Of a DNA stretch of 64,000 nucleotides, positions 3,386-58,924 are shown piece by piece. Source of the DNA: Micromonospora sp. C31 (GTDB lineage: Bacteria; Actinomycetota; Actinomycetes; Mycobacteriales; Micromonosporaceae); assembly GCF_018070575.1 (NCBI RefSeq), contig NZ_JAGPXN010000006.1:186001-250000 (forward strand), given 5' to 3'. How positions within the stretch are numbered: position 1 is the stretch's first letter; each line of letters opens with the position of its first letter. Position numbers and translations under genes: made by a program. The notes beneath the pieces are model-generated. The model was not told the DNA's origin, searched no databases, and worked only from the letters and a program-made list of their open reading frames with translations.

Positions 3386-4168
3386 GTGACCGAGGATCGG
3401 GCCAGCCGGCCGAAGAGCCCGCAGCAGATCACCGAGGCGGGACCGCCGGCCACTCGACGCCGGGGCGCCGCGCGCAGCCGGACCGGGCAGCCCGCCGTGC
3501 GCCCGGTCACCCCGGTGGTCAGCGCCTTCCCCGACCCCGCGACGGTGGATCTCACCGCCCGGCAGCGCCGGATCCTGGAGTTCATCCGCACCTGGGTCGA
3601 GCGGCACGGCTACCCGCCGAGCGTGCGCGAGATCGGCGAGGCCGTCGGCCTGGTCTCGCCGTCCAGCGTCGCCTACCAGCTCAAGGAGCTGGAGAAGAAG
3701 GGCTTCCTGCGCCGCGACCCCAACCGGCCGCGGGCCGTGGACGTCCGGGCCCCCGCCGACGTCGACGAGGAACTGGCCCGTTCGCAGCGCCCCGCCCCGG
3801 CCTACGTGCCGATGCTGGGCCGGATCGCGGCCGGTGGCCCGATCCTGGCCGAGCAGGCCGTGGAGGACATCTTCCCCCTCCCCCGCGAGCTGGTGGGTGA
3901 GGGCGAGGTCTTCATGCTCCAGGTCAAGGGCGACTCGATGCTGGACGCGGCGATCTGCGACGGCGACTGGGTCGTGGTCCGGCAGCAGCCGACGGCCGAG
4001 GCCGGTGACATCGTCGCCGCCATGCTCGACGGCGAGGCGACCGTGAAGACCTACCGCCGCCGCGACGGGCACGTCTGGCTCATGCCGCAGAACCCGGCCT
4101 TCGACCCGATCCCCGGCGACGACGCCACCATCATGGGCCGGGTCGTCGCGGTGCTGCGCCGCATCTGA
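3386..4168 (+). CDS. lexA: SOS repressor LexA
   Basis: 260-aa self-cleaving repressor of the SOS regulon. Residues 1-50 are a basic, low-complexity extension typical of actinobacterial LexA. A winged helix-turn-helix follows ([20 protein letters not shown], then [10 protein letters not shown] and [16 protein letters not shown]), and then the S24 peptidase domain. The cleavage bond Ala149-Gly150 (GRIAAGGPI), nucleophile Ser184 (GDSML) and general base Lys221 (ATVKTYRR) are all present. The GTG at 3386 is preferred because agggagga sits 5 nt upstream. The frame stays open to an ATG at 3236, but that would add non-conserved sequence. Divergent from nrdR. An SOS box and a candidate promoter lie upstream and a hairpin terminator downstream. 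Confidence 0.97.
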
Positions 4169-4180
4169 TCCGCCACCACT

Positions 4181-4212
4181 CCGGGTGGCCGCCGCCGGCG
4201 GTCACCCGGTTT
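4181..4212 (+). terminator. Intrinsic terminator after lexA
   Basis: CCGGGTGGCCGCC (4181-4193) and GGCGGTCACCCGG (4197-4209) form a 13-bp stem with one G-T pair and a 3-nt loop. It is followed by TTT and starts 13 nt past the lexA stop. The U-run is short, as is common in high-GC actinobacteria. Confidence 0.6.
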
Positions 4213-4317
4213 GGCGCCCCTGCGCTCCTCGACCCGCACGGGCATCCCGCACCGGCCGTCCACGCGGTGCCGTGCGCTCGGCACGTCAGTCCCGCACGGC
4301 CGTCGGTCCGGCGGGAT

Positions 4318-6078
4318 TCAGTAGCGATCGCCCCGGTAGCCCCGGCCGCCTCCGGGCACGTGCCCGTAGCCACGACCGTCCTCGGGGCCATCGTCACGTC
4401 GGCGGACCGGCCGCTGGCCGCGGGGATCCGGCTCGCCGCCCCGACGCGGCGGCTCCGCCCGGCCACCACCGTAGCCGCCACCGCCCGGCTGACTCCCGCC
4501 ACCGTAGACACCGCCACCGGGGCGACCGCCCCCCTGGCGTCCGCCACCGCCGCCCTGCCGGTCACCCGCGCCGTCGCCCTGGCGTCCGCCGCCCTGGCGG
4601 CGACCAGCGGGTGGCGGCCCGCCCAGGCCGGGCGGCGGCCCGTCGACGGGCGGACGTCCGCCGCCGTAGACACCGCCGCCGGCAGCCGTACGGGCTCCGC
4701 CGTAGACACCGCCACCAGCCGGACGGGCACCGCCGTGCCCCCCGCCGCCGGCCGGCGGACGGCCGCCGTGCCCCCCGCCGCCGGCCGGCGGACGGCCGCC
4801 GCGCCCACCGGCAGGGCCGCCGTAGACCGCCCCCGCCGGCGCACCGCCGTAGACGCCGCGCCCCCGGTCGCCCGGCGGAGCGAAGTCGTCGTCCGCCGGC
4901 CCACGCCGGTCGTCGGCGAGGACGTCGTCGCGGTCCGGACCGTCGTCGCCGCGGGCAGGCGCCGGCTTGCGCCGGGCCCTGAGGATGCCGAAGACACCGG
5001 CCGCCACCATCAGCGCGCCGATCACCCCCACGGCGGCGATCAGGTAGGTGATGTCGCTCAGGCTGAGGCCGTCGACCCAGGACTGGCCGGCCTTCTTCGG
5101 CGCGTCGTCCTCGCCGGCCACCGCTTTCGCGCCCTGCGTGGAGGGGGTGTAGGCGAGGATGTCGATCGGGGCGTCCTCGTCGAGCTGGCCGCCGTCCGAG
5201 ACGGTGAGGAGGGTCTTGCCGTCGGGGCTGTAGGTGATCGCCTCGCCGAACGGGTCGGCGAGCGGCGTCACCCGGGGCTTGCCGCCGGTGAGGGCCGCCA
5301 CGACGTTCCCGTCGGTCACGTCGTACTCGAAGGCGTCGGCGTAGGTGCGCACCACGACCCGGGAGCCGTCCGGTGACCGGGCCGCGCCGGTGATCGCCAC
5401 CCGACCGGGAGCGCCGAGCCGGTTGTCCGTGTCGGTCTCCGGCAGGCTGATCTCGCCGACCTTCTTCATCGGCACGGCCGGGGTGTCCCCGCTCTTCATC
5501 TTCTCGGCGGGGGAGAAGATCTGGGCCTTGCCGGACATCACCTTCGTGATGATCAACGGGTTGCCGTCGTCACCGATCAGCAGCGCCTCGGCGTCGTGCG
5601 GCTTGCCCTCCGGGTAGGAGAGGCGGTGCAGCACCGGCCGCTTGGACCCGTCGACCGGCATGCTCCACAGCGCCACCCGCTCGCGGCGCTCCCGACTGGT
5701 GACGTTGTCGCCGGTGTCGGCGATCCAGAGGGTGGCGCCGTCCGGGGAGAGCGCCAGATCCTCGGTGTCGAACGGGCCCCTGCCCGAGTAGCGGACCGGC
5801 TCCTTCGAGATGCCGCACTTGGCGTCGAGGAAGAAGACCCGCTTGCGGCTCTCCACCTCGGTGCCGTCGTTGATCACGATGTAGCCGCTCTTGGTGGCCA
5901 CCAGGCCCGACAGCTCCCGCAGCCGCTCGTCGGTGACGGTGCACCGCTTCTTACCCGCAGCGGCCGTGAGCGGGGACGCGGCCGAGGCCGGTGCCGCCGC
6001 CAGGGCGACCCCCGTACACGCCACGGTCGCCCCCAGCAAGCCGAGGACGACCGTGACCGAAGAAACAGCGCGGCGCAT
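4318..6078 (-). CDS. Secreted beta-propeller-like protein with TM anchor and Gly-rich cytoplasmic tail
   Basis: 586 aa, function unknown. Residues 1-34 form a signal peptide (MRRAVSSVTVVLGLLGATVACTG then ASAAS). Residues 45-330 contain WD40/NHL-like repeats typical of propellers: DLALSPDGATLWIADTGDN, AARSPDGSRVVVRT and AITYSPDGKTLLTVSDGG. A single hydrophobic helix at about 349-371 (ITYLIAAVGVIGALMVAAG) is followed by basic residues (RARRKPAP). That predicts an outside sensor or propeller anchored in the membrane. The remaining 210 residues are a highly repetitive, charged Gly/Pro/Arg tail with several GVYGG or GYGG motifs. A perfect 33-bp tandem duplication lies within it. It stands alone between lexA (convergent) and hflX (same strand, 50 nt upstream). 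Confidence 0.85.
   Translation of the reverse strand: MRRAVSSVTVVLGLLGATVACTGVALAAAPASAASPLTAAAGKKRCTVTDERLRELSGLVATKSGYIVINDGTEVESRKRVFFLDAKCGISKEPVRYSGRGPFDTEDLALSPDGATLWIADTGDNVTSRERRERVALWSMPVDGSKRPVLHRLSYPEGKPHDAEALLIGDDGNPLIITKVMSGKAQIFSPAEKMKSGDTPAVPMKKVGEISLPETDTDNRLGAPGRVAITGAARSPDGSRVVVRTYADAFEYDVTDGNVVAALTGGKPRVTPLADPFGEAITYSPDGKTLLTVSDGGQLDEDAPIDILAYTPSTQGAKAVAGEDDAPKKAGQSWVDGLSLSDITYLIAAVGVIGALMVAAGVFGILRARRKPAPARGDDGPDRDDVLADDRRGPADDDFAPPGDRGRGVYGGAPAGAVYGGPAGGRGGRPPAGGGGHGGRPPAGGGGHGGARPAGGGVYGGARTAAGGGVYGGGRPPVDGPPPGLGGPPPAGRRQGGGRQGDGAGDRQGGGGGRQGGGRPGGGVYGGGSQPGGGGYGGGRAEPPRRGGEPDPRGQRPVRRRDDGPEDGRGYGHVPGGGRGYRGDRY
4735..4800 (-). repeat. Perfect 33-bp tandem duplication in the Gly-rich tail
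   Basis: Bases 4735-4767 and 4768-4800 are identical, in frame, and encode two copies of an 11-residue GGRPPAGGGGH-type unit. Neighbouring GVYGG segments are more degenerate copies of the same low-complexity pattern. This points to expansion by slippage or unequal recombination. Confidence 0.9.
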
Positions 6079-6128
6079 TCAGTCAGTGTCGCACGCCGGT
6101 GGTTTCGGGCGCGTGACGCCGGGAGCCG

Positions 6129-7580
6129 TCATCGCGCGCCCGCGACCGCCCGGTCCTCCTCCACCCGGAACGGCGCCAGCTCGGCGGCGAGCGCCTCGCC
6201 GACGCGTACGTGCACCAGGGTGCCTTCCGGCAGGTGGGAGGTGCTCAGTACCTCGCCCTGACGGTGCACCCGGGCCACCAGGTCGCCCCGGTCGTACGGC
6301 AGCACCGCGCGGACCTCCACGGCCGGGCGGGGCAGCCGCGACTCGACTGCCTCGCGCAGCCCGTCGATCCCGCGGCCGGTGTGTGCGGAGACGAAGACCG
6401 CCTCCGGCCAGAGCCGCTTGAGCCGCAGCAGCGTCTCCTCGTCGGCCGCGTCGGTCTTGTTGACCACCAGCAGCTCGGGCAGCCGGTCGGCGCCCACCTC
6501 GGAGAGCACCTCGTGGACCGCCCGGACCTGCTCCTCCGGGTCCGGATGGGTGCCGTCGACGACGTGCACCACCAGGTCGGCCTCGGCGACCTCCTCCAGC
6601 GTCGAGCGGAACGCCTCGACGATCTGGTGCGGCAGGTGCCGGACGAACCCCACCGTGTCGGAGAGGGTGTAGAGCCGCCCGTCGGCCGTGGTGGCCTTGC
6701 GGGTGGTCGGGTCGAGGGTCGCGAAGAGCGCGTTCTCCACCAGCACGCCCGCCCCGGTCAACCGGTTGAGCAGGCTCGACTTGCCGGCGTTGGTGTAGCC
6801 GGCGATGGCCACGGCCGGTACGGCGTTGCGCGAACGCCGGGCGCGCTTGGTCTGGCGTACGGTCCGCATGCCCTTGATCTCGCGGCGCAGCCGGGAGATG
6901 CGGTGGCGGATCCGGCGCCGGTCGGTCTCCAGCTTCGTCTCACCGGGGCCACGCAGACCCACGCCGCCGCCGGCACCGCCGCCGCGACCGCTACCACCGG
7001 TCTGCCGCGAGAGGGTCTCACCCCAACCGCGCAGGCGCGGCAGCAGGTATTCGAGCTGGGCGAGCTCGACCTGCGCCTTGCCCTCCTTGCTCTTGGCGTG
7101 CTGGGCGAAGATGTCGAGGATCAGCGCGGTGCGGTCGACCACCTTGACCTTGGTGCGCTGCTCCAGGTTGCGCAGCTGCGACGGCGACAGCTCACCGTCG
7201 CAGATCACCGTGTCGGCGCCGGTGGCGAGCACGACCGCGCCGAGGTCGTCGACCTTGCCCCGGCCGACGTAGGTGGCGGGGTCGGGGCGGTTGCGCCGCT
7301 GGATCAGCCCTTCGAGCACCTGTGAGCCGGCGGTCTCCGCGAGCGCGGCCAACTCGGTGAGGGAGTTCTCGGCGTCGTTCTGCGAGCCCTCGGTCCAGAC
7401 GCCGACCAGGACGACGCGCTCCAGGCGCAGCTGGCGGTACTCGACCTCGGTGATGTCGGCGAGCTCGGTGGAGAGGCCGGGGACCCGCCGCAGCGCCTGC
7501 CGCTCCGACAGCTCGAGCTCACCGGTGGTGGCGTCGGGCTCGTCGTCCTCGTAGGGAAGTAGGGTCTCCTGGTTGTGCAA
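6129..7580 (-). CDS. hflX: GTPase HflX (ribosome-associated)
   Basis: 483-aa HflX-family GTPase that rescues or splits stalled ribosomes. The N-terminal HflX domain (VVLVGVWTEGS, GLIQRRNRPDPATYVGRGKVDDL) is followed by a Gly-rich linker (TGGSGRGGGAGGGVGLRGPGE) and the G domain. G1 is GYTNAGKSSLLNRL, G2 region FATLDPTTRKA, G3 DTVGF, and G4 NKTD. The start is taken as TTG at 7580, which has aggag 6-7 nt upstream and gives MHNQETLLPYEDDEPD. The family's usual length is 430-500 aa. A candidate promoter lies about 70 nt upstream. Confidence 0.95.
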   Translation of the reverse strand: MHNQETLLPYEDDEPDATTGELELSERQALRRVPGLSTELADITEVEYRQLRLERVVLVGVWTEGSQNDAENSLTELAALAETAGSQVLEGLIQRRNRPDPATYVGRGKVDDLGAVVLATGADTVICDGELSPSQLRNLEQRTKVKVVDRTALILDIFAQHAKSKEGKAQVELAQLEYLLPRLRGWGETLSRQTGGSGRGGGAGGGVGLRGPGETKLETDRRRIRHRISRLRREIKGMRTVRQTKRARRSRNAVPAVAIAGYTNAGKSSLLNRLTGAGVLVENALFATLDPTTRKATTADGRLYTLSDTVGFVRHLPHQIVEAFRSTLEEVAEADLVVHVVDGTHPDPEEQVRAVHEVLSEVGADRLPELLVVNKTDAADEETLLRLKRLWPEAVFVSAHTGRGIDGLREAVESRLPRPAVEVRAVLPYDRGDLVARVHRQGEVLSTSHLPEGTLVHVRVGEALAAELAPFRVEEDRAVAGAR

Positions 7581-52499: not shown

Positions 52500-53324
52500 G
52501 TGCCCGAAGGCGACACCGTCTGGAACACCGCCCGCGTACTGCACCGCGCCCTGGCCGGCGCTTGCCTGAGCGGCAGCGACTTCCGGGTGCCGCAGCTCGC
52601 CGCCGCGGACCTCACCGGCTGGACCGTGCAGGAGTCGGCCAGCCGGGGCAAGCACCTGCTGCTCCGCCTCACCGCCCCACCACGGGCCGCAGCCCCGGGA
52701 GACCACGGCGGGGCGCGTTGGACGCTGCACTCGCACCTGCGCATGGACGGCGCGTGGCGGGCGTACGCGCCGGGGGAACGGTGGACGGCCCGGCCGGCCC
52801 ACCTGATCCGGGTCGTGCTGCGCAGCGCGCGGGGGGTCGCCGTCGGCTACCACCTGCACGACCTGGCACTGGTGCCGACCGCCGAGGAGGAGGCGCTCGT
52901 CGGGCACCTCGGCCCCGACCTGCTCGGTGCGGACTGGGACCCGGCGGAGGCGGTACGCCGGCTGGCCGCCCACCCGGACGCCACCATCTCCGAGGCGCTG
53001 CTCGACCAGCGCAACCTGGCCGGCGTCGGCAACCTCTACAAGTGCGAGGTGCTCTTCCTGCGCGGCGTCTCACCGTGGACCCCGGTACGCGCGGTGCCGG
53101 ACCTCGCCGGCACCGTCGCCCTGGCGCAGAAGCTGCTCGCGGCGAACCGGGGCCGCTGGACGCAGAGCACCACCGGGTCGCTGCACCGGGGGCAGACCAG
53201 CTACGTCTACGGCCGGCGCGCCCAACCCTGCCGCCGGTGCGGCACGGCGATCCGCAAGGAGGAACTGGGCGAGCGGGTCACCTACTGGTGCCCGCTCTGC
53301 CAGCCGGAACATCCCGCCGGCTGA
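52500..53324 (+). CDS. nei2: Endonuclease VIII-type DNA glycosylase (Nei2)
   Basis: 274-aa Fpg/Nei-family bifunctional glycosylase/AP lyase removing oxidised pyrimidines. The N-terminus VPEGDTVWNTARVLHRALAG gives the catalytic Pro2 and Glu3 after removal of the first residue. The H2TH region is SEALLDQRNLAGVGNLYKCEVLFLRGVSP. The C-terminal zinc finger is CRRCGTAIRKEELGERVTYWCPLCQ. The MPEGDT start is the Nei hallmark and fixes GTG at 52500, with gaggaagg upstream. The larger frame upstream is a shadow. Confidence 0.95.
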   Translation: MPEGDTVWNTARVLHRALAGACLSGSDFRVPQLAAADLTGWTVQESASRGKHLLLRLTAPPRAAAPGDHGGARWTLHSHLRMDGAWRAYAPGERWTARPAHLIRVVLRSARGVAVGYHLHDLALVPTAEEEALVGHLGPDLLGADWDPAEAVRRLAAHPDATISEALLDQRNLAGVGNLYKCEVLFLRGVSPWTPVRAVPDLAGTVALAQKLLAANRGRWTQSTTGSLHRGQTSYVYGRRAQPCRRCGTAIRKEELGERVTYWCPLCQPEHPAG

Positions 53325-53370
53325 CCGGCACCGCGGGTCACCCGTCGGCCGGCGTGTCGGGCGGGACACT

Positions 53371-53412
53371 CCGTATCTGCGGCGACGATTCGCCTCGCCG
53401 CCGCAGATACGG
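53371..53412. terminator. 14-bp perfect inverted repeat downstream of nei2
   Basis: CCGTATCTGCGGCG (53371-53384) and CGCCGCAGATACGG (53399-53412) with a 14-nt loop, 46 nt after the nei2 stop. No U-run follows. Terminator most likely. Confidence 0.5.
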
Positions 53413-53543
53413 ACGATTGGGTACTTCCTAACCCCACCGTCGAGGTCGCATGCTGCGGTTGACTCCTCACGCATCGTCAACGAAGCGCGACCAGTCCGCC
53501 ACGCCGCCGTGGCGGTCGCCGCGCCCGGACACCGGGGAGAGCC

Positions 53544-56500
53544 ATGGAGCTGTTCCGCAGACTCCGCATCCCGTGGGCGCAGCGGGCGGCGCCCCGCACC
53601 GGCGACGACGTCGGCGACGGGACCGGGGCGGCCGGCGTCCCGGCGGCCCGGCGCGCGGCGGAGCCGGTCGTCGCGCCGGCCAGCCTCGATCCGGCCGCCG
53701 CCCCGCGCCACTTCGGCCCGGTGCCCAATTACGCGCACAGCCCGCGGCCGGTCGTCGACGCCGACGGCTCCGTGGTACCCGGCACCGGCATCCGCAAGTT
53801 CGTCGACGCGCTGCCACGCCCCGGCACACCCGGCCGCACCGAGCTGGGCGCCCGTCTGCCGGTGGCGGTGCCCGACACCGTCAGCTACCCGGGCTGCGAC
53901 TACTACGAGATCGGCCTGGAGCAGTACGCGCAGCGGCTGCACCGGGACCTGCCGGCGACCCGGCTGCGCGGCTACCGGCAGCTCAACCTCGGCACGGACG
54001 CCCACGGGCACAACACGGTCGTGCCGGCGGGGCGGCCCTGGCACCTCGGCCCGCTCATCCTGGCCCGGCGGGGCCGGCCGGTCCGGGTCAAGTTCATCAA
54101 CCAGCTCCCCACCGGCCGATCCGGCGACCTCTTCCTGCCGGTCGACCCCACCGTCGACGGCGCCGGAACCGGCCCGCTCGACGGCCCGGCACCCTACCCG
54201 CAGAACCGGGCGGTGCCGCGGCTGGCGGGCGCGCACACCGGCTGGACCAGCGCCGGCAACCCCTGGCAGTGGATCACCCCGGCCGGCGAGATCACCCCGT
54301 ACCCGACGGGGCCCGGCCTGAGCCACGTGCCCGACATGCCGCCGCCCGGCGCGGGCGCCAGCACGCTCTACTACCCGAACGAGCAGAGCGGCCGGCTGTG
54401 CTGGTTCCACGACAACACAGTCGGCCTGGCAAGGCTCACCGTCTACTCCGGGCAGCTCGCGCTCTACCTGCTCACCGACCCGGCGGAGGAGCGGCTCGTC
54501 GCCGACGGGGTGCTCCCCGCCGACCAGCTGCCTCTGGTGTTCGAGGACAAGACCTTCGTGCCGGGGGACAGCCAGCTCGCCGGGGAGGACCCGACGTGGG
54601 ACCGGGACCGCTGGGGCTCCCGGGGCAGCCTCTGGCACCCGCACGTCTACCAGCCCCGGCAGAACCCGCACCGGGCCGACGGGGCGAACCCGACCGGCCG
54701 GTGGGACTACGGCCCGTGGTCGCGTACGGGCGACGACACCGGGCAGCGGGGGCACGGGGGGACGCCGCAGCGGGCGGGCCCGGTGCCGAACCCGCACCAC
54801 GACCCGGTCGCCGCACCCGACGAGCCGCCGTTGGCGCCCGGCGTACCGCACCCCTCGGCGGTGCCGGACGCGTTCGGCGACACCGTGCTGGTCAACGGGA
54901 CCGCGTACCCGTACCTGGCGGTCGAGCCGAGGACGTACCGGTTCCGGATCCTCAACGCCTGCCTGGACCGTGCCCTGAACCTCCAGCTATACCGGGCCCG
55001 CTCGGACGGGCCGATGTGGGACGCGGACGGCGGGCTGGCCGACGCCGACGCCGGTGAGGTGCCGATGGTGGAGGCGGTGCGCGCGCCGGACCGACCGGCC
55101 GGCTGGCCGACGGACGGGCGCGACGGCGGGGTCCCGGACCCGCGCGCCGCCGGCCCGGAACTCGTCCAGATCGGCAACGAGTGCGGCCTGCTCCCCGCGC
55201 CGGTGGTGGTGCCGAACCAGCCGGTCGGCTACCGGTACGACCGGCGCGACCCGACCGTGCTCAACGTCGACGGGCACGCGCTGCTGCTCGCCCCGGGGGA
55301 GGCGGCCGACGTGCTGGTGGACTTCTCCGCCGTCCCGCCCGGCGGCACCCTGATCCTCTACAACGACTGCCCGGCCCCGCTGCCCGGCTTCGACCCGCGC
55401 GCCGACCACCGCACCGGTGGCCCGGACCGCACCGCCGAGGGCGGGGCGCCACCGACTTACCCCGGGTACGGGCCGAACACCCGCACCCTGCTCCAGTTCC
55501 GGGTCGCGGGCACCCCGGCGCCGCCGTACGACCTGGCTGGGCTGCGCGAGCGCCTGCCCGGCGCGTACGCGGCCAGCCAGCGCCCGCCGATCGTGCCGCA
55601 GCCGGCGTACGACGCCGCGTTCGGCACCCGGACGGCGCGCGACACGGTGGTCCCGGTGCACGCCGGCACGGTCAGCTTCGTCCCGGCCGGCGCCGCCGCC
55701 CCGGTGCTCCTGCCGATCGAGGTCAAGTCGGTGCAGCAGGTCTTCGAACCGGACCACGGCCGGCTCGTCGGCCGGCTCGGCGTCGGGCACCCGCACGCCG
55801 GGCCGCTCTCCCCCACCGTCCTGCCCCTCGGGCCGACCGACCCGGCCACCGAGGTGCTGCACGTCAGCGATCCGGCCGTCGCGGTGGGCGGGCCCGCCGA
55901 CGGCACCCAGCTCTGGCGGATCCGCGGCAGCAGCCGGCAGACCCAGCCGGTGCGGTTCACCGGCTGCGACGTGCAGGTGATCGGCCGGGTCGGCTGGGAC
56001 GGCGCCACCCGCGCACCGCACCCGGCGGAGCGGGGCTGGAAGCAGGTCGTCCGGGTCGACCCGTGTGAGGACGTGGTCGTCGCGCTCCGTCCGGTCGCGC
56101 CGCCCTTGCCGTTCAAGATCGGCGACAGCGTACGGCTGCTCGACCCGAGCCGGCCGGCCGGCGCCCGGACCGGCTCGACCCCGGTCAGCCCGCTGGACGG
56201 CCGGCCCGCGACGGTGGTGAACCAGCCCGTCAACCTGGGTTGGGAATACCACTGGCACAGTCAGCTCGGCGGCCACCGGGACCAGGGCATGATCCGGCCG
56301 CTGGTGCTGCGGGTGGCACCCCGGGCACCGAGCGGGCTGACCGTGACCCCCGTCCCCGGCTCGGCCACCGCGCTACCGGCGATCGCCCTGACCTGGACGG
56401 GCAACGGCAGTCGCCCGCCGGCCACCAGCCATCTGCTCCAGCGGGCCACCGACGCCGCCTTCACGCAGGGGCTCACGGCGATCACCGTGGCGGCCACGGC

Positions 56501-57191
56501 GACCCGCTACACCGACGCCACCGTCACCCCGGGGGTCACCTACCACTACCGGATCCGGGCGGAGAACGCGGTGAGCTGTTCCACGTGGTCCAACAGCGTG
56601 CCGGCCGCGGTGCGGCTCGCCGCACCGGCCGGGCTGACCGCGACGATCCCGCCCGCCGCGCCGCTGCGGATCGCGCTGCGCTGGGCCAACCGTTCGTTCG
56701 CCACGGGGATCGACGTGCAGCGGGCCACCAACCCGACGTTCAGCAGCGGGCCGGGCACCACCGCGATCGGGGTCGGCGACAACCACCTCGATGCCGCCGT
56801 CGCCCCGGACACCACCTACTACTACCGGGTGCGGACCACCTATCTCGGCGCCGCCTCGGCCTGGTCGACCGTGGCCCGGGCGACCACCCCGCCGATGCCG
56901 GGCCCGCCGACGGGCGTGACCGCCACCGCTACCGTCACCGGACCGGACACGGCGACGGTGATCCTCGGCTGGGCGTCCAGTACGCCGGCCTCACCGGGCG
57001 CCGGTTTCGTCGTGCAGCGGGCGCTGGACCCGGCGTTCAGCCGGGGGGTGGCGACCTTCACCGTCACGGGCCGGGGCTTCACCAACACCGGGCTGGCGCG
57101 CGGCGTCACCTACCACTACCGGATCCGCTCGTTCAACGTCGTCGGCAGCTCCCCGTTCACCGGCCCGGTCCCGATAACCACACCCCGGTGA
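53544..57191 (+). CDS. Multicopper-oxidase-like protein lacking copper ligands, with three FN3 domains
   Basis: 1215 aa. Residues about 60-925 keep the scaffold of CotA/MnxG-like multicopper oxidases. Every copper motif is altered, however. The HLHGG equivalent is RLAGAHTGWTSAGNPWQW (226-243). The HDH equivalent is FHDNTVGLARLTVYSG (288-303). The HPIHFH equivalent is QPVRFT (801-806). The HCH equivalent is HWHSQLGGHRDQGM (903-916), with Trp in place of the type 1 Cys. Residues 928-1214 are three fibronectin type III domains (APSGLTVT, APAGLTAT, GPPTGVTA), each ending in YHYRIR or YYYRVR. No signal peptide is visible in MELFRRLRIPWAQRAAP. ATG at 53544 with ggggagagcc upstream. No partner genes adjoin it. 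Function unknown; probably a structural or binding pseudoenzyme. Confidence 0.85.
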   Translation: MELFRRLRIPWAQRAAPRTGDDVGDGTGAAGVPAARRAAEPVVAPASLDPAAAPRHFGPVPNYAHSPRPVVDADGSVVPGTGIRKFVDALPRPGTPGRTELGARLPVAVPDTVSYPGCDYYEIGLEQYAQRLHRDLPATRLRGYRQLNLGTDAHGHNTVVPAGRPWHLGPLILARRGRPVRVKFINQLPTGRSGDLFLPVDPTVDGAGTGPLDGPAPYPQNRAVPRLAGAHTGWTSAGNPWQWITPAGEITPYPTGPGLSHVPDMPPPGAGASTLYYPNEQSGRLCWFHDNTVGLARLTVYSGQLALYLLTDPAEERLVADGVLPADQLPLVFEDKTFVPGDSQLAGEDPTWDRDRWGSRGSLWHPHVYQPRQNPHRADGANPTGRWDYGPWSRTGDDTGQRGHGGTPQRAGPVPNPHHDPVAAPDEPPLAPGVPHPSAVPDAFGDTVLVNGTAYPYLAVEPRTYRFRILNACLDRALNLQLYRARSDGPMWDADGGLADADAGEVPMVEAVRAPDRPAGWPTDGRDGGVPDPRAAGPELVQIGNECGLLPAPVVVPNQPVGYRYDRRDPTVLNVDGHALLLAPGEAADVLVDFSAVPPGGTLILYNDCPAPLPGFDPRADHRTGGPDRTAEGGAPPTYPGYGPNTRTLLQFRVAGTPAPPYDLAGLRERLPGAYAASQRPPIVPQPAYDAAFGTRTARDTVVPVHAGTVSFVPAGAAAPVLLPIEVKSVQQVFEPDHGRLVGRLGVGHPHAGPLSPTVLPLGPTDPATEVLHVSDPAVAVGGPADGTQLWRIRGSSRQTQPVRFTGCDVQVIGRVGWDGATRAPHPAERGWKQVVRVDPCEDVVVALRPVAPPLPFKIGDSVRLLDPSRPAGARTGSTPVSPLDGRPATVVNQPVNLGWEYHWHSQLGGHRDQGMIRPLVLRVAPRAPSGLTVTPVPGSATALPAIALTWTGNGSRPPATSHLLQRATDAAFTQGLTAITVAATATRYTDATVTPGVTYHYRIRAENAVSCSTWSNSVPAAVRLAAPAGLTATIPPAAPLRIALRWANRSFATGIDVQRATNPTFSSGPGTTAIGVGDNHLDAAVAPDTTYYYRVRTTYLGAASAWSTVARATTPPMPGPPTGVTATATVTGPDTATVILGWASSTPASPGAGFVVQRALDPAFSRGVATFTVTGRGFTNTGLARGVTYHYRIRSFNVVGSSPFTGPVPITTPR

Positions 57192-57248: not shown

Positions 57249-58028
57249 TCAGGGTGTGCGCAGCGGGGCGCCGACGGTACGCAGCTCGGTCAGGGCCGAG
57301 GCGACGCCGTGCAGCAGGTCGGTCGCCTCGGTGAGGCGGGAGGCGGCCGGGTGCGCGGCGTCGGGGTGGGCCTCCCCGGCGACGTAGCCGGCGGCGGCCA
57401 CGACCAGCCGCTCGTACGCGGTGACGCCCTGCTCCAGCTGGGCGGCCAGGGCGCGGTGCGCCTCGGCCAGCGCCGGCCGGGACTCGGCCGGGGCGAGCCG
57501 GAGCGTGCGCTCGACGCTGGCCACCCGGTCGGCGAGGTCGCGCAGCGACCGGTCGGCCTCGGCGGCCTCCAGCACGGCCGGCGAGGCCAGTCCTGTCAGC
57601 CGGCCGGTCATCCCGGCGAGCGTGAGGGCGGCCCGGTCCAGCCGGGCCCACGGCTCGGCGGCGCTGGTGCCGCGCAGCGCCACCCGCGAGCGCACCCGCC
57701 GGACCTCGGCCAGCACGCCTGGGCCGACGGGAAGCCGTTCCACGGCGGCGACCAACCTGGCGCGCGACCGCGCGGCGGCCTCGGCCGGGGCGAGCGGCGC
57801 CGGCGCCGGCTGGGCGGCCAGCGCCCGCAGGTCGATCCAGCGCCAGGCGGCCAGCACCAGCGCACCGCCCGCGCCGGCCGCCCAGGCCGCGTCGGGCAGC
57901 CCGAGCCCGGCGTACGGGGTCAGCACGGCGGCGGCGCCGCTCAGGCCACCGGCCGTGACGCTCCACCGACGTGCGGACCCCCGCAACCGGCTCAGCCGCC
58001 GGAAGTACCGCGTGCGCTCGTCTGCCAC
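57249..58028 (-). CDS. pspM: PspM-like membrane protein of the Psp system
   Basis: 259 aa with two central hydrophobic helices (SVTAGGLSGAAAVLTPYAGLGL, AAWAAGAGGALVLAAWRWIDL). Long Ala/Arg-rich helices follow (ATDLLHGVASALTELRTV). In mycobacteria PspM is encoded just after pspA and tethers PspA; the same order here (clgR, pspA, pspM) supports the call. GTG at 58028 with gaggaggcagag upstream, 23 nt after pspA. Confidence 0.75.
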   Translation of the reverse strand: MADERTRYFRRLSRLRGSARRWSVTAGGLSGAAAVLTPYAGLGLPDAAWAAGAGGALVLAAWRWIDLRALAAQPAPAPLAPAEAAARSRARLVAAVERLPVGPGVLAEVRRVRSRVALRGTSAAEPWARLDRAALTLAGMTGRLTGLASPAVLEAAEADRSLRDLADRVASVERTLRLAPAESRPALAEAHRALAAQLEQGVTAYERLVVAAAGYVAGEAHPDAAHPAASRLTEATDLLHGVASALTELRTVGAPLRTP

Positions 58029-58051
58029 CTCTGCCTCCTCGACCCGGCCGC

Positions 58052-58924
58052 TCAGCCGGCGGCGGTGGTGTCCCCGGTGCCGCGCTCGCGGCCCATGCTG
58101 GCCCGGATCTCGTTCAGGCGGGCAGCGGCCGCCGGGTCGGCGGCCGGTGCGGCGGGCTGAGCCTGCTCCGCACCCGCTCGTTCCTGCTTGGCGCCGAGCT
58201 GCTCGCCGGCCATGCTCGAGCGGATCTGCTCCAGCCGGGAGGAGCCGGCCGAGTCGAGGGTCGACTTCTGGATCTCCAGCATGCGGCCCTCGACGGAGTT
58301 GCCGGCCAGCTCGGCGCGGCCCATCGCGGTGGCGTAGCGCTGCTCGATGCGGTCGCGCACCTCGTCGAGCGAGGGCGTGTTGGCGGGGGCGGCCAGCGTC
58401 GACATCGACTCCAGCGAGCGGGCCACGCTCTCCTGCATCTTGGCCTGCTCCAGCTGGCTGAGCAGCTTGGTGCGCTCGGCGAGCTTCTGCTGCAGGATCA
58501 TCGAGTTGTTCTCGACCGCCCGGCGGGCCTGGGCGGCGGCGCCGAGCGCCTGGTCGTGCAGGGTCTTGAGGTCCTCCGTGGCCTGCTCCGCCGAGACGAG
58601 CTGGGTCGCCAGGGTCTGCGCGGACTGCTCGTAGCGGCCGGCCTCGGTCTCGTCGCCCCGGGCGCGGGCCTGGTCGGCGAGGACCAGTGCCTGGCGGGCG
58701 TTGGCCTGCAACCGCTCGACCTCGGTCATCTGACGGGACAGCTTCATCTCCAGCTGCCGCTGGTTGCCGATCACGGCGGCGGCCTGCTGGACCAGCCCCT
58801 GGTGCTGGCGCTGAGCCTCCTCGATGGCCTGCTGGATCTGCACCTTCGGATCGGCGTGCTCGTCGATCCTGGCGCCGAAGAGCGCCATCAGGTACTTCCA
58901 CCCCTTGACGAACGGGTTCGCCAT
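58052..58924 (-). CDS. pspA: Phage-shock protein A (PspA/IM30)
   Basis: 290-aa peripheral membrane coiled-coil protein of envelope stress. The N-terminal amphipathic segment [20 protein letters not shown] is followed by [52 protein letters not shown] and further coiled coil. The C-terminal extension ([26 protein letters not shown]) is Ala-rich. ATG at 58924. Downstream of clgR and upstream of pspM. Confidence 0.94.

Follow-up and report, generated by a model that had tools for sequence, protein, structure and literature searches.

A CotA-type multicopper oxidase that has probably become a non-catalytic core protein in Micromonospora

In this study, we describe a gene of Micromonospora sp. C31, here named PsMCO, which is located at positions 53544..57191 of the plus strand in a stretch of 64,000 nucleotides (contig NZ_JAGPXN010000006.1, positions 186,001 to 250,000; hereafter the window) and encodes an apparently copper-less CotA-type multicopper oxidase of 1215 amino acids (aa) with three C-terminal FN3 repeats. 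We consider it probable that PsMCO is a pseudo-laccase, that is, a CotA-type oxidase whose residues would allow neither the type 1 site nor the trinuclear cluster to be built, maintained in the core gene set of Micromonospora (taken broadly, with Salinispora) by purifying selection and having a non-catalytic binding or scaffold role like that of SufI/FtsP. Several parts of this proposal can be read directly in the sequences: to which fold family the protein belongs, that ligands and two acidic residues of the second shell are gone while the scaffold is conserved, that the loss proceeded stepwise at a syntenic locus, and that intact paralogs survive elsewhere in some of the same genomes.

The coding sequence consists of a single open frame of 1215 codons (53544-57191, plus strand), with 53544 as the earliest ATG, GTG or TTG start. 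The multicopper oxidase region comprises residues 50-929 (53691..56330, plus strand; ends approximate), as delimited by profile alignment to CotA and by the model match. Among solved structures, the best match was CotA, with an E-value of 4e-33 for the single sequence and of 8e-51 for the family profile. The AlphaFold2 model of residues 50-935 had a mean predicted local distance difference test score (pLDDT) of 55 and a predicted template modelling score (pTM) of 0.67, and matched the CotA entries and their relatives with Z values of 18-19 across approximately 420 residues and a Foldseek E-value of 4e-26. By sequence and by fold similarity PsMCO belongs to the multicopper oxidase superfamily, CotA type, and its kinship is with CotA and bilirubin oxidase; a preliminary description of this DNA, made from the letters alone, had proposed a scaffold of this kind. 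The Pfam Cu-oxidase cut-offs were missed by PsMCO (12.4 bits versus 21 for PF00394 and 12.2 versus 21 for PF07732), and that of PF07731 was passed by three relatives with 11-12 ligands. It must be noted that pLDDT was below 50 at three of the four ligand motifs of the model and that confidence was low in the linker. The ligand columns were set by profile alignment to CotA, and the intact relatives were used as a check.

All four copper motifs are altered in PsMCO (coordinates on the plus strand). HLHGG of CotA reads RLAGA (residues 226-230; 54219..54233), in which H105 is replaced by R226 and H107 by A228. HDH reads HDN (residues 289-291; 54408..54416), with H153 kept as H289 and H155 replaced by N291, and HPIHLH reads QPVRFT (residues 801-806; 55944..55961), with Q801, R804 and T806 in place of H419, H422 and H424. 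These three replacements had been listed in the preliminary description and were confirmed in the window letters, the register being taken from the profile alignment. For the fourth motif, a change of HCH to HWH, with Trp in the place of the type 1 Cys, had been reported, and this was a register error. HWH corresponds to residues 903-905, a Trp directly precedes HCH in most relatives, and the Cys492 column falls on Ser906, the true replacement being WHCH by WHSQ (residues 904-907; 56253..56264; H491 kept as H905, C492 replaced by S906 and H493 by Q907). In the alignment, H497 of CotA is kept as H911, followed by R912 at Glu498 (56274..56279), and the axial Met502 is kept as M916 (56289..56291). 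The type 1 ligands (His419, Cys492, His497, and Met502) thus read Q, S, H, and M, and two of the eight His of the trinuclear cluster are preserved. The loss of all four copper motifs, as originally proposed, therefore stands in the sense that each of them is altered, but four of the 12 canonical ligands (H289, H905, H911, and M916) remain.

The relatives were obtained from a scan of genome contigs, which yielded 114 relatives, and 78 distinct loci were kept, nearly all of them named Micromonospora, Salinispora, Verrucosispora or Plantactinospora. The first alignment contained 75 rows, with the fragments L073, L074, and L077 and the split L080 omitted. The alignment for ligand counts also contained 75 rows, 69 in-group and six others, with L060 omitted from this point on for its broken frame; in that locus (3787-6886) the frame is interrupted near the gene end, the record is a draft and the cause may be a sequencing fault or a real break. 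The in-group rows are the window, Micromonospora, Salinispora, Verrucosispora and one 'Micromonosporaceae bacterium'. The core clade, with 70 rows, includes L108 and L036 from one contig/genome and excludes L059, although the latter is in the 69-row set; L109, identical to L038 (Micromonospora mirobrigensis) with branch lengths near zero, was omitted from the core counts and the fewest-change analysis.

The type 1 Cys was lost in 69/69 in-group rows, being replaced by Ser in 55, Thr in 12, Gly in one and Val in one. H424 was also lost in all 69 and H107 in 68, while H155 was replaced by Asn in 68. H105 and H153 were kept as His in 66 and 64 rows, respectively, and each row preserved between 2 and 7 of the 12 ligands. 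Since H105 is so widely kept, the Arg of RLAGA is peculiar to the window copy. Relatives that keep the ligands do exist, but the losses are in general common to the whole clade, which answers the objection that this copy alone might be drifting neutrally. The 12 ligands are all present in the deep actinobacterial relatives L078, L083, L098, L100, and L101.

The changes extend to the second shell. Asp116 of CotA, in the second shell of the trinuclear site, is Ala237 in PsMCO (54252..54254), and both Asp116 to Ala and Glu498 to Arg (R912) were found in 70/70 core rows, whereas Asp and Glu occupied these positions in 11/11 intact rows. In addition, the His at position 795, ahead of the third motif, was Gly in 70/70 core rows. 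In a study of CotA, E498T and E498L were severely impaired, E498D kept about 10% of the activity, and Glu498 was given a part in passing protons (PMC2944330). In the same source, mutants of the residue equivalent to Asp116 in CueO and Fet3p are cited as important, while its own modelling is against a direct proton role (PMC2944330). As PsMCO has neither the type 1 Cys nor the two acidic residues and has lost most of the cluster ligands, catalysis with copper is very unlikely, and we infer that the protein carries no copper and does not oxidise any substrate.

The gene has nevertheless been kept. When residues 100-299 (200 aa) served as the query, 120 of the 121 genomes searched in the genus, that of the window included, had a match, and the one without was a draft. 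The long form was present in 5/40 other genomes of the family sample, one of the five from the same genus, and a long relative in 4/49 other genomes of the phylum sample. No second full copy was detected in its own genome, where the sole other match was weak and spanned 79-89 residues within a frame of 524 aa. Plasmid records gave 51 matches, none covering more than 80% of the query and all below 60% identity. Given that nearly every searched genome of the genus keeps the gene, PsMCO has probably taken on a non-enzyme job.

The scaffold has been preserved while the ligands have not. Among the 11 intact rows, 379 positions were conserved in at least 90%, comprising the 12 ligands and 367 others. 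The core clade keeps 246 of the 367 non-ligand positions at 95% or more and none of the 12 ligands (Fisher p = 2.5e-6). The median ratio of nonsynonymous to synonymous substitution rates (dN/dS) of the core clade was 0.318 (987 pairs, first 45 of 72 sequences), well below 1, and those of the intact paralogs and of the Plantactinospora type described below were 0.311 and 0.323, respectively (10 pairs each). An earlier calculation put the core at 0.331 and the FN3 part at 0.272. As the core and the intact paralogs have similar values, the overall constraint was not lowered when copper was lost. These figures, together with the presence in 120/121 genomes, agree with the earlier suggestion that the scaffold is under selection.

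Intermediate states of the loss are found at a single locus, next to the gene pair pspM-pspA. The orthologues located there keep 11/12 ligands in Plantactinospora alkalitolerans (L069), 9/12 in L061, L062, L063, L095, and L094, 7/12 in L097 and 2/12 in L096. The other side is flanked by nei2 in all of them except L069, which had no nei2 match in the 1.4 kilobases (kb) upstream included in its record. The Plantactinospora type (L061, L062, L063, L069, and L095; 9-11/12 ligands) kept Cys492 and lost His493, and includes L063, which clusters with Plantactinospora though it is named Micromonospora sp. HM5-17. L094 lost Cys492 and kept His493. Since these states cannot be converted into each other by loss alone, the copper sites were dismantled along at least two routes. 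In a tree from which the 12 ligand columns had been left out, the syntenic copies were united with a Shimodaira-Hasegawa-like approximate likelihood ratio test (SH-aLRT) value of 96 and a bootstrap of 98, and L094 was joined to the Micromonospora line with 93/93. With fewer intact paralogs, the supports were 81/87 and 84/89, respectively. On a quickly built tree in which the ligand columns were retained, the fewest-change counts were one change for Cys492 and three for His493.

Copies with the full ligand set are also present in the genus. In 5/121 genomes there is a second copy at another locus, with 52-54% identity to the window protein over nearly its whole length (L103-L107). All five have 12/12 ligands and cluster with L080 (12/12) at 100/100, and Asp116 and Glu498 are kept in the six of them. 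The core copy of the five two-copy genomes keeps 4, 5, 5, 5, and 5 of 12 ligands.

With respect to the N-terminus, a simple hydropathy scan bore out the earlier statement that no signal peptide is visible. No hydrophobic stretch appeared in 70/70 core rows, the window included (12-residue maximum of 1.62 or less), nor did the same scan find one in the six intact Micromonosporaceae paralogs. Such a stretch, with maxima of 2.15-3.03, was seen in all five deep intact relatives, for which a longer part of the N-terminus was covered by the scan. If the deep form is ancestral, signal loss would therefore have preceded copper loss. A basic N-terminal stretch with the pattern F-[RK]-[RKM]-[LFI] is common to the syntenic copies that were printed and is missing from the paralogs. 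CotA is made without a signal peptide and is deposited on Bacillus spores. In the same way, PsMCO might be released or deposited without a signal peptide, or it might stay in the cytoplasm. Two of the deep relatives, L083 (49-4947) and L098, are proteins of about 1620-1630 aa, and in L083 FG-GAP repeats (Pfam) precede the intact multicopper oxidase.

The C-terminal tail consists of three FN3 repeats of about 95 residues each, with the pattern QRA..xF / TYxYRxR recognised by eye. Their borders, also set by eye, are residues 930-1022 (56331..56609), 1023-1114 (56610..56885), and 1115-1215 (56886..57188), all on the plus strand, and Pfam places fn3 at residues 1121-1210 of the last. The Pfam fn3 model (PF00041) was above its cut-off (29 bits versus 25) with two significant stretches, the third repeat being recognised by eye, and the three domains of the preliminary description are thus upheld. 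The intact paralogs align with the window protein through the tail, to residue 1214, and the tail is visible by eye in the intact L080; for the intact L106, Pfam reported no fn3. The tail is accordingly not tied to copper loss: an enzyme already bearing it was most likely the ancestral form, and its copper-less version became the core gene of the genus.

In our proposal, PsMCO would serve as a docking or scaffold protein that binds through its cupredoxin scaffold and three FN3 repeats, a role similar to the one favoured for SufI/FtsP of Escherichia coli. Several observations weigh against it and must be considered. This function is assigned by analogy only. The model of PsMCO is poor, as its mean pLDDT indicates, and that of an intact relative reached a pLDDT of only 36 from a ten-row alignment, which is too shallow. 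The gene evolves faster than five of its neighbours, whose dN/dS is 0.19-0.25. Moreover, the ligand columns as a set were not significantly faster than the others (mean 1.09 versus 0.98, p = 0.06), which means that the ligands have not simply been released. The columns are uneven in this regard, with N291 nearly frozen and H424 and H493 variable. Finally, new His have become conserved: H365, H419, H436, H623, H963, H1001, H1081, and H1191 are His in 94-100% of the 70 core rows and in 0/11 intact rows, and H167 and H749 are His in 93 and 89% of the core rows, respectively. Such residues could bind another metal, in which case PsMCO would be a metal-binding or differently catalytic protein. H365 forms part of a W-H-P-H run, and Cys118 is fixed in the core clade and present in two of the 11 intact rows. 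However, the new His are scattered, some in the domain linker and others in the domains and in the FN3 tail, and neither they nor Cys118 lie in the four ligand motifs. In addition, H419, H1001, and H1191 already occur in some Plantactinospora-type or other intermediate rows, and several of the new His are Tyr to His replacements, reachable by one base change. A new metal site is consequently regarded as unlikely.

It could also be argued that PsMCO is a dead gene on its way out, whose frame and sequence identity persist by inertia. The differences in ligand positions between close relatives, the frame broken near the end in the L060 draft record and the long form being restricted to 5/40 other genomes of the family sample are in favour of this. 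Yet the retention of the gene in the genus, a dN/dS far under 1 that equals the value of the intact homologues, the fixation of new residues (N291 in 68/69 rows, R912 and A237 in 70/70) and a partly conserved upstream block make it highly improbable. The preliminary description had related the FN3 repeats to surface or polysaccharide contact, and a secreted surface protein touching polysaccharide through these repeats, exported in an unconventional way, would be in line with the hydrophobic N-terminal stretch of the five deep intact relatives. FN3 repeats are, besides, common in secreted bacterial proteins. This contact is not supported by our results, since the signal-like stretch is absent from the core rows and from the six intact paralogs, the seven Pfam matches of PsMCO include no carbohydrate-binding family, and the tail is also present in intact relatives. 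We therefore consider such a surface protein rather unlikely, and a non-catalytic binding or scaffold protein remains our preferred explanation.

A tentative history, which may well have run otherwise, can be outlined for this lineage. An exported laccase would have lost its signal peptide in Micromonosporaceae and become cytosolic. Beside pspM it would then have been stripped of copper stepwise by separate routes, Cys492 being lost before His493 in one branch and His493 being lost with Cys492 kept in another, until the genus had turned it into a core structural protein; the copper-competent paralog would have survived as an accessory gene. Under this scheme, the loss of export, and with it of copper supply, would have come first and opened the way to the repeated formation of a pseudoenzyme.

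Upstream of the gene, an alignment of 69 stretches, 18 of them printed, revealed a partly conserved non-coding block at approximately 53405..53485 (plus strand). Its core occurs once in its own genome at two or fewer mismatches. Both features favour a dedicated promoter, and the block is likely the promoter or operator of PsMCO. No regulon emerged through it, as no second copy was found in its own genome. The sister genera have a different block, similar among themselves. A sporulation promoter was considered and discarded: the block matched no known sigma class, and the likeness of the sister-genus block to a BldN-type promoter is weak and is not claimed. Between nei2 and the gene there is a 19-nucleotide inverted repeat (53370-53413; 95% complementary, 6 nucleotides between arms); no site resembling a terminator with its run of T was detected. 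A conserved upstream hairpin was likewise rejected, as its signal was partly an effect of gap columns and the left arm showed gaps or differences in each of the other 17 rows printed. The spacing between nei2 and the gene is about 0.2 kb in the window, about 0.4 kb in L054 and about 1.9 kb in the Salinispora loci L048, L053, and L066.

On the other side, pspM (57249..58049, minus strand; NCBIfam NF047839, 188.6 bits versus a cut-off of 80) is convergent with PsMCO. It is accompanied by a conserved gene at 58052..58924 (minus strand) which, by synteny, we take to be pspA, and which had no NCBIfam match at an E-value of 0.001. The gene and pspM are separated by little DNA in most loci, and additional sequence lies between them in L034 (6010-7480), L045 (9705-10429), and L059 (9435-10954). 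Long antisense open frames are common in GC-rich DNA, and one such frame, at 53070-54851 of the minus strand, spans the end of nei2 and the start of PsMCO and was not taken as a gene.

Copper-less multicopper oxidases are already known, SufI and the insect MCORP among them. Among the matches listed from open-licence PMC papers, judged by titles and abstract starts, no account of the PsMCO lineage was found. CotA of Bacillus subtilis (PDB 1gsk) is its best sequence match and among its best fold matches, and shares the three-domain cupredoxin scaffold; PsMCO differs from it in having lost 8/12 ligands, Asp116 and Glu498 and in having large insertions and three FN3 repeats. The intact leaderless multicopper oxidases of some Micromonospora (L080, L103-L107) also have no signal-like stretch, but they keep 12/12 ligands and are located elsewhere. 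SufI/FtsP of Escherichia coli (PDB 2uxt) resembles PsMCO in the multicopper oxidase fold and in its few ligands. It has 2/12 ligands and no copper in the crystal, and the authors of the study favour a scaffold role (PMC2661564). SufI is, however, a division protein exported by the twin-arginine translocation (Tat) pathway and structurally closest to CueO, whereas PsMCO is leaderless, of CotA type and bears FN3 repeats. PsMCO scored 39.1 bits against a cut-off of 581 for the NCBIfam FtsP equivalog, and the hydropathy scan found no hydrophobic N-terminal stretch that could correspond to the Tat signal peptide, a trait of FtsP. The insect MCORP is an oxidase-family relative without many of the copper-coordinating residues and is essential according to the title of the report (PMC4203857); it belongs to an animal lineage, and its loss was presumably independent. 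The known copper-less oxidases usually show the finished product only, while here the orthologues at one syntenic locus keep 11, 9, 7, and 2 of 12 ligands. An annotation based on the scaffold would label this core Micromonospora protein a laccase. The value of the system lies in a series of living relatives that runs from intact to empty at a single locus. As some of the same genomes also carry fully intact paralogs, a comparison of paralogs within one strain would allow direct tests of how the losses were ordered, what the new function is and how the scaffold is selected.

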